IMG/VR virus record: IMGVR_UViG_3300025759_000610 | Span: 1 to 26,025 of that record | Source of the DNA: a virus | Length of the DNA stretch: 26,025 nt | Strand: one strand, 5' to 3' | In this document: piece by piece, positions 19,670 through 25,707 of the stretch | How the letters are laid out: each line of letters starts with the position of its first letter | How positions within the stretch are numbered: position 1 is the first letter of the stretch | Translations under genes and position numbers: made by a program | Notes under the pieces: generated by a model | The model's database searches: none | What the model saw: only the letters and a program-made list of their open reading frames with translations | What the model was told of the DNA's origin: nothing

Positions 19670-22600
19670 ATGGCTAGATTCGGTGAAATTAACGCACAAT
19701 ACTTTGATGACGCTGGAGATCCGCTTGGCAGTGGCAAGTTGTATTTTTACGACTCAGGCACTACTACGCCAAAAGTCACCTATTCTGATATTAACTTAAC
19801 GATTCCAAACACGAATCCAGTTATATTGACTGCGGCAGGACGCCAGCCAAACATATTTTTTAACGGTAACGCCAAAGCAATATTAGCTGACAAGAATGAT
19901 GTTCAGATTCTTGTAAGAGATCCTGTAGGTGAAACAGGAACTAACTTTGGTGATCCTTGGGTAGCTACTAAAATTTACTCATCAAATGCAGTTGTTATTG
20001 GCAGCGATGGGGTTTATTACAGATCGCTCGATAGCGGAAATCAAAACAATAATCCAACCACTACATCAGGCTTTTGGACTTTATTATATTCAGTAGATTG
20101 GAACTCTGGCATTACATATCAAACTGGAGCAATGGTTACTGTTGATGGTGAGCAATATCAGTCTTTACAGGATAGCAATCTAGGAAACGATCCTACAACA
20201 TCTCCAGCCTATTGGGTTCTTTTGAGTTTTGCTTGGCTTGCCACGGCTACTTATGCAGAAGATCAAAATGCTGTAGGAACTGATGGTGTTTTATATACAT
20301 CGCTACAGAACTCAAACACTGGCAACGATCCAACAACTTCTCCTGCTTACTGGGTAGGCACTTCAGCGGCAGCGGCAGCGAGTGCAACAGCAGCGGCAAC
20401 GTCTGCAACCAATGCGGCAACTTCTGCTTCAAACGCTTCTACCTCCGCAACTAATGCGGCTACTTCAGAGACCAATGCAAGCAACTCTGCAACGGCTGCG
20501 GCTACATCTGCAACTAACGCTGCTGAAAGTGCTGCTTCTGCTGCTGCTACTGCGGGCGCTGCTCTATGGGTAAGTGGACAAACATACAACGCTGGTGATG
20601 CTGCAATATCTTTAATTAACTTTCAGACATATAGAGCTGAAATTACAACTAGCGGAACTACTGATCCAAGTGCCGATGCGAACTGGACAAAACTCGGCTA
20701 TTCACTGCCAAGCCAAACAGGAAATTCAGGCAAGTTTTTGACAACAGATGGATCTAATGAAAGCTGGGGAATAGTTAATACGGACTCAACGCTCGGCACA
20801 CTAACCAAGACTTTCACAACTGGTGAGTCCTCTACCATCAATCTCACAAGCTCAGTGCTTGCGCCAGTGGTCAGTGTGACTAAAGAAGTTCCACAGTCAG
20901 GAGTGACTAACAACTCTTGGGATGTTAATTCTACTACAGAGAATTACACGCGATTGGATAGTGCTGCTGCGACTACTTTGAACTTTGAGGCTTTTGATGT
21001 ATCTACCGCATCGTTTACTGATAGTTTTTCAGTGTCCGCACAAGAATCAGGCACTGCAACTGGAATTGCATTCAATAACGATGGCACTAAAATGTATATG
21101 ATTGGTTATACTGGAGATTCAGTGTATCAATATGATTTATCTACTGCTTTTGATACATCTACTTCAAGTTATGTTCAGAGTTTTTCAATAGCGGCACAAG
21201 AATCAGATTCTTATGGGGTAATATTTAGTGCTGACGGCACAAAGATGTTTGTTGTTGGCTCGGTAGGCAACGATATAATTGAATATATTTTATCTACTGC
21301 ATTTGACATTTCTACTGCTACATTTAATCAGACTCTAAGTACATCGGCTAATATATCTTTCCCAATTTGTATAGCGTTTAACAATGACGGAACAAAAATG
21401 TTTGTTGGCGATAATACTGGAGCAAAGATAAATGAATACTCTTTATCAACTGCTTATAACATCTCAACTGCTACCCATGTTCAATTTATAAGCATTACAA
21501 CACAAGATTCAACTTTAAGAGGTATTGCTTTTAATGCTGATGGAAGCAAATTGTTTGCTATTGGCCTTGCCAACTATAGTGTCTATCAATATTCATTATC
21601 TACTCCATTTGATATTTCTACATATTCGTATGTTAAAAGTTTTTCGTATTTTGCTCAGGGTAATAACGGAATAGATTTAAAATTTAATACCGACGGAACG
21701 AAGATGTACATAATTGATGGAACTTCTTCTAATGTAAATGAATATGCTCTGCCACCTGCTTCACTAGCACTCGGCACAGGCTCATTCGCCTCAGCAGACG
21801 TAGGCAAGACCATCGAAGCTAACTCAGGTGTGTTTGTCTTAATAGCCACAGACGGTTCGTTTGAACAGACTACAGCACCTACATCATATGACCAAGTAGC
21901 CTCCGGTGACTGGAGTATGTACGGTGTTGTCTATAATGTTGCGGATGGTGACTTAGAATTAAGCTATGGAATTATAGATAAATACGATATTTCTACTGCT
22001 GTTTATTCTCAGAGCTTTAATGTTGTTGCTCAAGAAACAGCGCCAACTGGAATTTTCTTTAAACCAGATGGGACTAAAATGTATATTTCTGGAGATACTG
22101 GAAATGACATAAACGAATATGACTTGACTACTGCGTTTGATGTTTCTACTGCTTCATTTTTACAATCTTTCTCAGTATCAGGACAAGAAGGCAATGTACA
22201 AGATGTAACGTTTAGCCCAGACGGAACAAAGATGTTTATTGTTGGCTTCGCTCAAGACAATGTTCATAGATATTTATTATCAACGGCTTGGGATGTTTCT
22301 ACTGCTTCTTATTCTCAGACTTATTCAGTTGCAGGACAAGAGGTAACGCCAACCGGAATAACATTTAACACAGACGGCACAACAATGTTTATTATTGGTA
22401 CGGCTTCACCAGTAGACGTTAATCAATACGCATTAAGTACAGGTTTTGATTTAACATCGGCGTCATATACTGGGGCTTTTTCTGTAATTAATGAGTTTAG
22501 CGCACCGCAGGGATTAGTATTTAATTCTACTGGAACTAAGATGTTCGTCATTGGTTCAAGCACAGATCGAATTGGAGAATATTCGCTAACTACACCTTTT

Positions 22601-24109
22601 TCCGTTATTAGTGGTGTTAGTATTGTTCAATTTTTTGACGTATCGAATGAAGGAAGCAATCCTAAAGGCTTAACTTTTAACTCTGACGGAACAAAAATGT
22701 TTGTTATTGATAACTCTCGTGATGTTAATCAATACTCAGTAGGAACAAAATTAACTCCTACAGGCTACCATCCAGTACACACCACAAACTCAATAGACTC
22801 TACCTACTGGACTGACATCAACTCGATGACAGCAGACCAAGCCGCAGGTGACGGCAATGTCTACTACGCTATCTCTACAGACGACAGAACAACGTGGACT
22901 GTTATTGATAACACAGATGGCGAGAGAGATATTGTCAGGAACAACGGTGGTACTTGGCAGTACAACTCTAACGGCACATACGCTTCAGAGACTTGGACTA
23001 ACGGCACAACTAACACAGAGTTAGCTACGTTGGCTGAGGCTATGGAAGGTGCTAGTACAGTTGTTGGCTTTGGTGTTTTAACAGCAACTTTTGTTGATAG
23101 CTTTAGTGTAGCATCACAAGAAACTCTGCCAATGGGCGTGGCGTTTAGTGCAGATGGCACTAAAATGTTTATTGTTGGCGAAAGTGGAGGAGATGTAAAC
23201 GAATATACTCTGTCTACGGGATTTGATGTATCTACTGCTAGTTTTGTTGATAGTTTTGTTGTTAGCAGTCAAGACAATGCTCCATTAGGATTAGCATTTA
23301 ATGCAGATGGAACTACGATGTTTATTATTGGTGATACTAATAATACTGTATACCAATACACATTATCTGTCGGATTTGACGTATCAACAGCATCTTATGC
23401 TTCTAAAAGTTTTAATGTTTCATCACAGGAAACAAATCCAACAGGAATAACATTTAACACAACTGGCACTAAGATGTTTATTGTTGGAATAAACGGAGAT
23501 TCTGTATATGAATATTCGCTGTCTATTGGCTTTGACGTATCAACAGCATCTTATGTCACTAGCTTTAGTGTTGCAGCGCAAGAAACATCGCCGCAAGATG
23601 TAGCGTTTAACACTGACGGAACGAAGATGTTTGTTGTTGGTCAAACAGGGCAAGATGTAAACGAGTACACGTTATCAACTGGCTTTGATGTTTCAACAGC
23701 AGTTTTTGTTGATAGTTTTTCAGTATCCGCACAAGAAACGCTTCCAAATGGAATAGCATTTAATACAAACGGCACTAAGATGTTTATTGTTGGTCAAACA
23801 GGAGACGATGTAAACGAGTACATAACAGGAAGTACAATCTACCAAAACCAGATGGACAAAACGCAACTAGACGCAGTAACAGACCCGAACCACATAGCCT
23901 TGGGTAACGATCTTGATCTAGCGATAGTCCTCAACATGACATCAGGTTCTACAGTGCCTTCGTCAGACGGCGTAGCAATTAACTACGATGCTAACGTGTT
24001 GAACAAAGGTGCTGTCTTAGGAACTGACTATGACTTTGATGCTCCTGCTCAGGACAAGGTAAGGATTACAGCCTTGGTAGGGAATAACTTGAAGGTTCGA
24101 GTGGTTTAA
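19670..24109 (+). CDS. Tail fibre with carbohydrate-binding-like modules and 15 propeller-like repeats
   Basis: A 1479-residue receptor-binding protein. Residues 1-95 (FGEINAQYFDDAGDPLGSGK, then LYFYDSGTTTPK and NTNPVILTAAGRQPNIF) are a fibre/tailspike head-binding domain. Four modules of about 45 residues begin at Trp97, Trp144, Trp189 and Trp300 with a W-x(5)-Y-x-x-G-x(2)-V-x(4)-x-Y-x-S ... P-x(4)-x-W pattern, like type 5/12 chitin-binding modules. A seven-heptad Ala/Ser/Thr stalk lies between modules three and four. Three blocks of five F-N-x-D-G-T-K-M-F-x-x-G repeats follow (residues 442-694, 772-1024, 1134-1385), separated by non-repeat segments. The last 95 residues (DKTQLDAVTDPNHIALGNDL, then DGVAINYDANVLNKGA, ending NLKVRVV) match fibre ends I know from marine phages. 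The start has AGGA upstream and follows the previous stop by one base. The protein probably acts as a trimer at the tail (inference). Confidence 0.85.
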   Translation: MARFGEINAQYFDDAGDPLGSGKLYFYDSGTTTPKVTYSDINLTIPNTNPVILTAAGRQPNIFFNGNAKAILADKNDVQILVRDPVGETGTNFGDPWVATKIYSSNAVVIGSDGVYYRSLDSGNQNNNPTTTSGFWTLLYSVDWNSGITYQTGAMVTVDGEQYQSLQDSNLGNDPTTSPAYWVLLSFAWLATATYAEDQNAVGTDGVLYTSLQNSNTGNDPTTSPAYWVGTSAAAAASATAAATSATNAATSASNASTSATNAATSETNASNSATAAATSATNAAESAASAAATAGAALWVSGQTYNAGDAAISLINFQTYRAEITTSGTTDPSADANWTKLGYSLPSQTGNSGKFLTTDGSNESWGIVNTDSTLGTLTKTFTTGESSTINLTSSVLAPVVSVTKEVPQSGVTNNSWDVNSTTENYTRLDSAAATTLNFEAFDVSTASFTDSFSVSAQESGTATGIAFNNDGTKMYMIGYTGDSVYQYDLSTAFDTSTSSYVQSFSIAAQESDSYGVIFSADGTKMFVVGSVGNDIIEYILSTAFDISTATFNQTLSTSANISFPICIAFNNDGTKMFVGDNTGAKINEYSLSTAYNISTATHVQFISITTQDSTLRGIAFNADGSKLFAIGLANYSVYQYSLSTPFDISTYSYVKSFSYFAQGNNGIDLKFNTDGTKMYIIDGTSSNVNEYALPPASLALGTGSFASADVGKTIEANSGVFVLIATDGSFEQTTAPTSYDQVASGDWSMYGVVYNVADGDLELSYGIIDKYDISTAVYSQSFNVVAQETAPTGIFFKPDGTKMYISGDTGNDINEYDLTTAFDVSTASFLQSFSVSGQEGNVQDVTFSPDGTKMFIVGFAQDNVHRYLLSTAWDVSTASYSQTYSVAGQEVTPTGITFNTDGTTMFIIGTASPVDVNQYALSTGFDLTSASYTGAFSVINEFSAPQGLVFNSTGTKMFVIGSSTDRIGEYSLTTPFSVISGVSIVQFFDVSNEGSNPKGLTFNSDGTKMFVIDNSRDVNQYSVGTKLTPTGYHPVHTTNSIDSTYWTDINSMTADQAAGDGNVYYAISTDDRTTWTVIDNTDGERDIVRNNGGTWQYNSNGTYASETWTNGTTNTELATLAEAMEGASTVVGFGVLTATFVDSFSVASQETLPMGVAFSADGTKMFIVGESGGDVNEYTLSTGFDVSTASFVDSFVVSSQDNAPLGLAFNADGTTMFIIGDTNNTVYQYTLSVGFDVSTASYASKSFNVSSQETNPTGITFNTTGTKMFIVGINGDSVYEYSLSIGFDVSTASYVTSFSVAAQETSPQDVAFNTDGTKMFVVGQTGQDVNEYTLSTGFDVSTAVFVDSFSVSAQETLPNGIAFNTNGTKMFIVGQTGDDVNEYITGSTIYQNQMDKTQLDAVTDPNHIALGNDLDLAIVLNMTSGSTVPSSDGVAINYDANVLNKGAVLGTDYDFDAPAQDKVRITALVGNNLKVRVV
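20363..20563 (+). repeat. Ala/Ser/Thr heptad stalk in the fibre
   Basis: Residues 232-298 of the fibre fall into heptads of the form S-[AE]-[TS]-[NA]-A-x-[TN], seven in succession near the right end. This is a short trimeric coiled-coil-like stalk of the type seen in lambda side fibres. Its low complexity creates long spurious frames on both strands. Confidence 0.75.
20993..21751 (+). repeat. Fibre repeat block 1 (five propeller-like repeats)
   Basis: Five repeats of about 50 residues (residues 442-694). Each has a [FY]-[DN]-[IVT]-S-T-x-[ST]-[FYH] start, a short strand with Q-E/D, then F-[NS]-x-D-G-[TS]-K-[ML]-[FY] and an N-E-Y-x-L or Y-Q-Y-x-L end. Repeat three has a one-residue-shorter F-V-G-D-N turn and repeat five ends in A-L-P-P. 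Confidence 0.9.
21983..22741 (+). repeat. Fibre repeat block 2 (five propeller-like repeats)
   Basis: Five further repeats (residues 772-1024), again 253 residues by my boundaries. The cores read F-K-P-D-G, F-S-P-D-G, F-N-T-D-G, F-N-S-T-G and F-N-S-D-G followed by T-[KT]-M-[FY]. The fourth and fifth are the most diverged (PFSVISGVSIVQFFDVSNEG). Confidence 0.9.
23069..23824 (+). repeat. Fibre repeat block 3 (five propeller-like repeats)
   Basis: The last five repeats (residues 1134-1385, 252 residues) are the most uniform, with GFDVSTASFVDSF-like starts and TKMFIVGQTG-like ends repeated with few changes. The first start is F-G-V-L-T-A-T-F and the last end runs into the C-terminal fibre domain. 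Confidence 0.9.
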
Positions 24110-24784: not shown

Positions 24785-25006
24785 ATGGAATACCAAATAA
24801 TTTTTAACGTAGGCATTGCTCTGGTAGGATTTATCGGAGGCTGGATGGTAAACCGTGTTTTTGTATTACTAGATAGAATAGACGCTGACATGAAAGCTAT
24901 TCCTATGCAGTATGTTGCTAAAGAAGATTACAGAGAAGATATACGCGAAATTAAAGAAATGCTTGGCGCAATATTTAAACGACTAGAGAGTAAGGCTGAC
25001 AAATGA
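24785..25006 (+). CDS. Small membrane-anchored protein, 73 residues (possible lysis accessory)
   Basis: Residues 3-28 (YQIIFNVGIALVGFIGGWMV) form one transmembrane helix with a G-x-x-G-G face. After it comes a charged amphipathic helix, AKEDYREDIREIKEMLGAIF and RLESKADK. One membrane helix followed by a short charged helix is seen in small holin-like, antiholin-like and spanin-like phage proteins, but nothing here separates these. The ATG lies one base after the upstream stop, and the end overlaps the lipase start (ATGA). Placement among lysis-region genes is the only functional clue. Confidence 0.6.
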   Translation: MEYQIIFNVGIALVGFIGGWMVNRVFVLLDRIDADMKAIPMQYVAKEDYREDIREIKEMLGAIFKRLESKADK

Positions 25007-25707
25007 AACTTGATCCTGTATTGCTAAACATGGCTTGTAGTTGGTCGATTAAGGCTTACAACGATGAGAACCGTGACGCTATAAAGATTGAGAACAAGCT
25101 AACTAGCGCTACTGCTTTTGTTGTAAAACGCAAGTCTATAGATATTATTGTCTTCAGAGGAACGCAGGAAAAGTTAGACATACTGACTGACCTTGCAGTA
25201 ATTCCAGTTCCTTACGTTAAACGCCTTTGCCATGCTGGCTTTGCTATGTCTCACAAATCTATCTGGGATGAGATAGAGAAACACATAGACTATGACAAGC
25301 GCACTCTCATCTGCGGTCACAGCCTTGGCGGCGCAATGGCAGAGCTTACTGCTGCTAAGCTAAACGGCAAACATGACAACTTAAATCTTATAACCTTTGG
25401 AAAGCCTAATGTTTTCTTTAAAGGTTTCAAGCGTCCTATGACTTTGGATAACCAGATATCAGTTGTTTCAGGTTCTGACATGGTGGCTCGTATGCCAAGG
25501 CTTTGTTACGGAGCTTCCAAGTCACAGACAATGCTGTACTTTGGTAATGACGGAATCAATCTAATTAATCCTAGCGCTTACGTTCGCAAGTTAGACCGTG
25601 GTGGATTAAAAGACCGTATAACTGATCATTTTATGGCAGGCTACAAAGAGAGATTAAAAGAATTTATTAAGGAGCAAAAGAATGCGAAGAATAATGATAG
25701 CGATTAG
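25003..25707 (+). CDS. Class 3 lipase-like alpha/beta hydrolase
   Basis: A 234-residue predicted esterase or lipase. It has the class 3 lipase pattern: DIIVFRGTQEKLDILTDLAV, in which F-R-G-T supplies the oxyanion region; the nucleophile elbow GHSLGGAMAEL with Ser107; LITFGKPNVF; the acid Asp159 in SGSDMVARMP; and His209 in TDHFMAGYKERL. All three catalytic residues are therefore in the expected order and spacing. No signal peptide is visible, so it would need a holin or fusion to leave the cytoplasm. It is set between small membrane proteins and a lipoprotein, so envelope lipid attack at lysis is the likely role; a change to host lipids during infection is an alternative. It overlaps its neighbours by 4 and 26 bases. 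Confidence 0.85.
   Translation: MKLDPVLLNMACSWSIKAYNDENRDAIKIENKLTSATAFVVKRKSIDIIVFRGTQEKLDILTDLAVIPVPYVKRLCHAGFAMSHKSIWDEIEKHIDYDKRTLICGHSLGGAMAELTAAKLNGKHDNLNLITFGKPNVFFKGFKRPMTLDNQISVVSGSDMVARMPRLCYGASKSQTMLYFGNDGINLINPSAYVRKLDRGGLKDRITDHFMAGYKERLKEFIKEQKNAKNNDSD

Follow-up and report, generated by a model that had tools for sequence, protein, structure and literature searches.

Three predicted five-bladed propellers in a putative receptor-binding phage fibre and their probable exchange as whole blocks

What does a phage fibre build from repeats that are grouped in fives? The window, meaning the whole stretch of DNA analysed here, is a 26,025-base virus contig (IMGVR_UViG_3300025759_000610) in which one 1479-aa open reading frame (19670-24109, plus strand) holds all the repeats under study. 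The initial annotation had counted fifteen propeller-like repeats in three equal blocks of exactly five and suggested that each block might be one closed five-bladed beta-propeller. The count is borne out: the core F-x-x-[DNT]-G-[TS]-[KT]-[ML] is found 15 times in three groups of five, at residues 468, 519, 570, 621 and 672 (block 1), 797, 848, 899, 951 and 1003 (block 2), and 1159, 1210, 1262, 1313 and 1364 (block 3). Core spacing shows a dominant lag of 51, followed by 52, 102 and 103. Mean repeat identity inside single blocks is 42 to 61%, block 3 being the most homogeneous (61%). The pairwise comparison proposed by the annotation gives barely different overall values, 48.7% within and 46.2% between blocks; since shuffled repeats reach 22.5 +/- 5.3%, the repeats are similar far beyond chance.

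Layout of the fibre gene

The window carries a P22-like podovirus module with terminase, portal, scaffold, coat, connector and DNA-ejection genes, the portal having its best isolate match in Pseudoalteromonas virus vB_PspP-H6/1 (42%). The fibre gene and its parts are as follows.

19670..24109, plus strand: putative receptor-binding fibre gene, 1479 aa (ORF), after the head, connector and ejection genes of the P22-like module
19670..19945, plus strand: N-terminal virion-anchor domain of the tailspike head-binding type, residues 1-92 (phmmer; end by eye)
19958..20359, plus strand: three short CBM5/12-type modules, residues 97-230 (Pfam and by eye)
20360..20560, plus strand: Ala/Ser/Thr-rich stretch, probable coiled-coil shaft, residues 231-297 (PHROG 3279)
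20837..20992, plus strand: conserved segment ahead of block 1, residues 390-441 (homologue identity)
20993..21751, plus strand: propeller block 1, five repeats (cores; model strands at residues 448-693)
21752..21982, plus strand: conserved linker domain 1 (74% mean identity to the window versus 48% for the flanking blocks; low pLDDT)
21983..22741, plus strand: propeller block 2, five repeats (cores; model strands at residues 778-1023)
22742..23068, plus strand: conserved linker domain 2 (78% mean identity to the window; low pLDDT in the model)
23069..23824, plus strand: propeller block 3, five repeats (cores; model strands at residues 1140-1385; 94.7% DNA match to the related phage L008)
23825..24106, plus strand: conserved C-terminal domain, residues 1386-1479 (79% mean identity to the window across homologues)

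The anchor matches PDB 7eeq, 'Tailspike head-binding domain', by phmmer (E 1.5e-8, residues 17-68). Behind it, Pfam CBM_5_12 matches residues 144-182 with a score under the curated cut-off (E 0.0002), and the two similar copies beside this match were assigned by eye. These modules stand in tandem (n=3) between anchor and propellers, and a fourth similar stretch lies past the Ala/Ser/Thr-rich part. PHROG 3279, 'tail fiber protein', matches residues 234-314 (E 1.3e-8), and the Ala/Ser/Thr-rich stretch would form a coiled coil and a trimer. Because of the head-binding anchor, the CBM5/12-like modules, the PHROG 3279 match and the P22-like gene context, the gene is best read as probably encoding a receptor-binding fibre or a tailspike-type protein. 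It has the N-terminal head-binding domain of P22-like tailspikes, but Pfam found no beta-helical polysaccharide-cleaving or other catalytic tailspike domain on the protein; compared with 7eeq, the same type of anchor is followed by propellers instead of a catalytic domain. Downstream of the fibre lies a class 3 lipase gene (25003-25707; Pfam Lipase_3, E 3.6e-18), which is conserved in L008 together with the gene before it, while the fibre there is replaced.

Predicted fold of the blocks

AlphaFold2 was run on residues 390-1479 with a 44-sequence alignment (the window plus 43 viral-contig homologues). It returned three well predicted all-beta domains with pLDDT of about 93, and between them poorly predicted linkers with pLDDT of about 30. 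Each block has 20 main strands (5 x 4) spanning exactly 246 residues from first to last strand, in agreement with the equal block lengths and limits drawn in the initial annotation, whose end at 23824 coincides with the last strand of propeller 3. The model as a whole has a mean pLDDT of 74.9 and a pTM of 0.37, the latter being low because the linkers and the C-terminus are poorly resolved; the model is therefore silent on the relative placement of the propellers.

The repeat unit runs in the order D-A-B-C, an F-x-D-S-F-S-V-like strand opening each block and an N-E-Y-like strand closing it, which is the register expected for velcro closure. The opening D strand of every block is assigned as a strand in the model, and the only strand with which it could pair in the standard way is strand C of blade five. 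We infer closure because this first D strand, which would be partnerless in an open array, is assigned as a strand nonetheless; the repeat counts and the junctions in longer runs described below also bear on it. A stand-alone five-repeat protein of Lentibacter phage ICBM2 (BFVD) superposes at 0.9 A over 261 columns. In a PDB fold search the whole model retrieved mostly multi-propeller proteins with low TM-scores, and since the inter-domain placement is undefined these matches speak for the fold class and not for the blade number. The 20 strands per block and the propeller matches in the PDB place the blocks in the beta-propeller fold with predicted closure, lending support to the annotation's suggestion of three five-bladed propellers per fibre.

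Very probably, then, the gene encodes a receptor-binding fibre with a head anchor, a shaft and three closed five-bladed propellers on a conserved chassis, the propellers being exchanged as whole blocks. The repeats, their counts, the predicted domain partition, the DNA breakpoints and the loop variation are direct observations; closure geometry, oligomeric state and ligand we infer. The head-binding domain would anchor the fibre to the virion of a P22-like short-tailed phage, followed by a CBM-like and probably coiled-coil shaft and then by three propellers set on conserved linkers and a C-terminal domain. The first strand of a block would complete the blade begun by its last three strands, so that five repeats make one ring. 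The fast-changing DA and BC loops of one face would bind host surface ligands, and duplication, loss and exchange between fibres would act on the five-repeat block as a whole.

Loop variation and exchange of blocks

Variability across 1870 distinct repeats is highest in columns 35, 19 and 17, followed by 7, 36, 39 and 22. Amino acid change was then compared between loops, as defined by the predicted strands, in 119 independent close pairs. The ratio N/S, here a raw count of codon differences and no formal dN/dS, is 1.35 in the DA and BC loops, 0.32 in the AB and CD loops and 0.40 in the strands (DA and BC excess, Fisher p 4e-13; per-column Mann-Whitney p 0.0002). In propellers, DA and BC loops lie on a common face. 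Since amino acid change concentrates in the loops of this face, it most likely serves to bind ligands on the host surface, which are probably glycans, and the propellers themselves may be glycan-binding domains. Column 19 (e.g., window residue 463) is diverse overall and rarely changed in close relatives, unlike columns 16, 17, 35 and 36; it may be a position at which specificity evolves more slowly.

Could the propellers be lactonase- or glycosidase-like enzymes rather than binding domains? Lactonase and gluconolactonase-type propellers are among the sequence relatives, the class 3 lipase gene lies nearby, and P22-type tailspikes are often enzymes. Conservation, however, falls on structural positions that recur from repeat to repeat (D-G-T-K, for instance) and gives no hint of one catalytic cluster, and the face that probably carries the function is the one that changes fast. 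An enzymatic role is unlikely.

The blocks themselves vary most. Mean identity to the window is 74 to 79% in the linkers, the segment before block 1 (76% over residues 390-444) and the C-terminal domain versus 48 to 57% in the blocks. Across fibre pairs, the identities of the linkers and C-terminal domain correlate with one another at 0.75 to 0.83 and with block 1 at about 0. In 10 fibre pairs one block is 94 to 100% identical at the protein level and another 39 to 63%, and DNA identity changes sharply at the block edges in such pairs. For L035 and L040 it is 95% in block 2 and 53 to 58% in blocks 1 and 3; for L042 and L039 it is 100% in blocks 2 and 3, 55% in block 1 and 88% in linker 2. L060 apparently represents the L042 fibre in a second sample. 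Chimeric assembly is an alternative for any single pair, but several pairs agree.

Another example is L008, from a related phage that shares the two genes downstream of the fibre with the window (71.6% DNA identity). At the fibre's locus it encodes a protein of 747 residues, in which the N-terminus differs and there is a single block; this block matches window positions 23088-23822 at 94.7% DNA identity. The predicted strands of propeller 3 start at 23087 and stop at 23824, and the match ends within 2 bp of them. In this protein (L008:210-2450), N-terminal repeats of the AVVGTVSGTSISFG kind are fused to the five-repeat block near-identical to window block 3; these repeats are perhaps another propeller. 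We also considered orthology of blocks by position, which was rejected: a tree of 90 blocks, with rough support values, requires 34 changes of position label compared to 42.9 for shuffled labels and a minimum of 2, so that the labels are almost shuffled.

The closed five-blade ring thus probably folds as a unit and is also exchanged genetically as a unit, whole propellers being recombined on a fixed chassis with edges at their first and last strands; the whole block would serve as exchange unit because the ring would fold on its own. The same probability covers the accompanying view that this type of ring also occurs in surface proteins of bacteria, SAR11 among them. It could be argued that the propellers are spacers that set fibre length while the C-terminal domain does the recognition, since block number varies, mostly from one to three per protein, and the C-terminal domain is conserved. 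Yet conservation is highest in the linkers and the C-terminal domain, which is not what a host-specific tip would show, and it is the blocks that vary and are exchanged; a spacer role is quite unlikely.

Five-repeat runs in the wider family

The search of fibre families for variation in block number, proposed in the initial annotation, yielded the range of one to three just given, but its view that a triple set is new for a phage fibre does not hold: such sets are frequent in this marine family and also occur in isolated Roseobacter phages. Phages CRP-2, CRP-9 and CRP-13 of Roseobacter have three blocks each, CRP-738 has two, Lentibacter phage ICBM2 has one, and Synechococcus phage S-SKS1 has one, its fifth repeat assigned by eye. 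CRP-2 has been reported to be an HMO-2011-type phage (PMC6918029).

A repeat HMM was run over all loci, namely, viral contigs found with a block query, viral contigs found with a single-repeat query, bacterial and archaeal genome contigs, and phage records. Seeding with a single repeat means that block size was not a selection criterion in that set; the genome contigs were scanned with one single block, an 18-block profile being too diverse. Removal of near-duplicates left 260 proteins with 421 interior runs at the base setting, of which 371 are five repeats long, 9 ten, 1 fifteen and 40 of other lengths. Allowing wider gaps gives 408 runs, 386 of which have a multiple of five repeats. Overall, 91 to 95% of about 410 runs from about 260 non-redundant proteins have a length of 5, 10 or 15, the same pattern holds in the single-repeat-seeded sets and in cellular genomes, and the irregular repeat numbers that the annotation thought would speak against closed rings are absent.

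On reading the sequences, most seeming runs of four turned out to have a degenerate fifth blade, SAR11 runs of 2+3 to be five with a longer spacing, and the shortfall in L168 to be a first repeat missed through the start codon chosen; sixth repeats at a lower score cut-off (-3 bits) were spurious. About five apparently true exceptions are left: L031 and L162 with four repeats, L180 and L243 with three, and L237, which is broken. All are metagenome, MAG or single-cell contigs, and collapse of near-identical repeats or frameshift is a possible cause. In L237 the repeats are partial and spread over several short ORFs, apparently because frameshifts have broken up a propeller gene.

Among the longer runs, the junction between repeats 5 and 6 is altered in 8 of 9 runs of ten, by a short insertion (e.g., FDYPTEGY) or by shortening to 38 to 40 residues. 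L036 has fifteen repeats without a linker, whose identity peaks at lag five (67.7% versus 56 to 65%) and whose repeats 1, 6 and 11 have divergent openings. A prediction from a 22-sequence alignment gives pLDDT below 50 within the array only at the 5/6 and 10/11 junctions (residues 336-338 and 596-607), so the array is predicted to split 5+5+5, exactly after repeats 5 and 10. These repeats (L036:1120-6183) stand between linkers 1 and 2, in the place of block 2, as if the block 2 propeller had been tripled and block 1 lost. At the other extreme, some phages encode proteins of 275 to 280 residues with five repeats and little else; the genes of such minimal proteins (L227, L233, L244, L282, L295) adjoin larger genes with one or two blocks.

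Other architectures are found in SAR11-type genomes. Very large proteins with a LEPRIMFDGA-like start motif have one to several five-repeat blocks (L153-L160, L184-L201). Proteins of about 700 to 820 residues combine a signal-like start, five repeats and a C-terminal F (L169, L182, L202, L206-L217), and their genes often lie two or three near each other. Outer-membrane barrels often end in F, and from their sequences these proteins are possibly barrel-anchored surface propellers.

Do five repeats complete a ring? They might be half of a shared one, ten-bladed from two chains or blocks or shared in an oligomeric fibre; fragments of other propellers do oligomerise, and five-blade constructs gave dimers (PMC6805158). 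Against this, the count does not change with the number of blocks per protein (one, two or three) and is also the same in cellular proteins that are built differently, the model has short strands on both sides of each block, and the 5/6 junctions of runs of ten are altered; a shared ring is very unlikely. A six- or seven-bladed propeller per block, with extra blades from the divergent linker, would follow the YVTN and lactonase families. The sequence relationship is there: the best PDB profile match is the S-layer (YVTN) propeller 1l0q (E 4e-20), a PDB sequence search with one block giving weak matches only; Pfam SGL matches above its curated cut-off, and Pfam Lactonase (7-bladed) and SGL match related proteins. 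But 1l0q, the closest solved sequence relative, has seven blades, whereas the units here have five repeats; there is no room for more in the minimal proteins or in linker-free runs of 10 and 15, the model shows exactly 20 strands per domain, and the linkers are poorly predicted, leaving additional blades highly improbable. A continuous open solenoid in which five is an accident of descent would explain why repeats from different blocks are almost as alike as those of one block, but it has next to no chance: multiples of five are kept across phages, SAR11, Bacteroidetes and Patescibacteria, fifteen uniform repeats are predicted to partition 5+5+5, and the window model has three separate domains in place of the solenoid that the annotation had thought contrary to its proposal.

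Closed five-bladed propellers thus remain the preferred reading, and phage propellers, five-bladed ones included, are already known. phi11 Gp45 has one in a phage receptor-binding protein, and PRD1 P2 contains a distorted one (PMC4901313). In phi11 Gp45 and 80alpha gp61, an N-terminal strand closes blade 5 and sugar binding has been proposed (PMC4901313, PMC7048315). The window fibre is predicted to resemble them, its receptor role being deduced from anchor and gene context. The two differ from it in having one propeller per chain (three per trimer) compared to three per chain, and in being siphophage baseplate proteins with an N-terminal coiled-coil stem instead of a P22-type head-binding domain; phi11 Gp45 has no sequence match among the listed PDB matches. 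The lectin Tachylectin-2, named as a five-bladed propeller of similar repeats (PMC6805158), is likewise without a match among the listed solved structures. Recently amplified propellers are reported to have many blade numbers above and below the one preferred in their lineage, and a 15-blade array was predicted as 7+8 (PMC9218822). The family described here shares their near-identical tandem blades, but its runs are of 5, 10 or 15 and its fifteen are predicted as 5+5+5. In the open-access literature searched, both the strict count of five within a highly repetitive lineage and the multi-propeller chassis with exchange of whole rings are new.

With several hundred natural arrays in fives, near-identical sequences from nature are at hand for testing what fixes the number of blades. 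If the proposed exchange is true, marine phages have combinatorial multi-propeller receptor-binding proteins, in which receptor-binding variation would come as whole-domain cassettes plus loop change with a readable module boundary. Host-range prediction for uncultured marine phages could therefore go per propeller.
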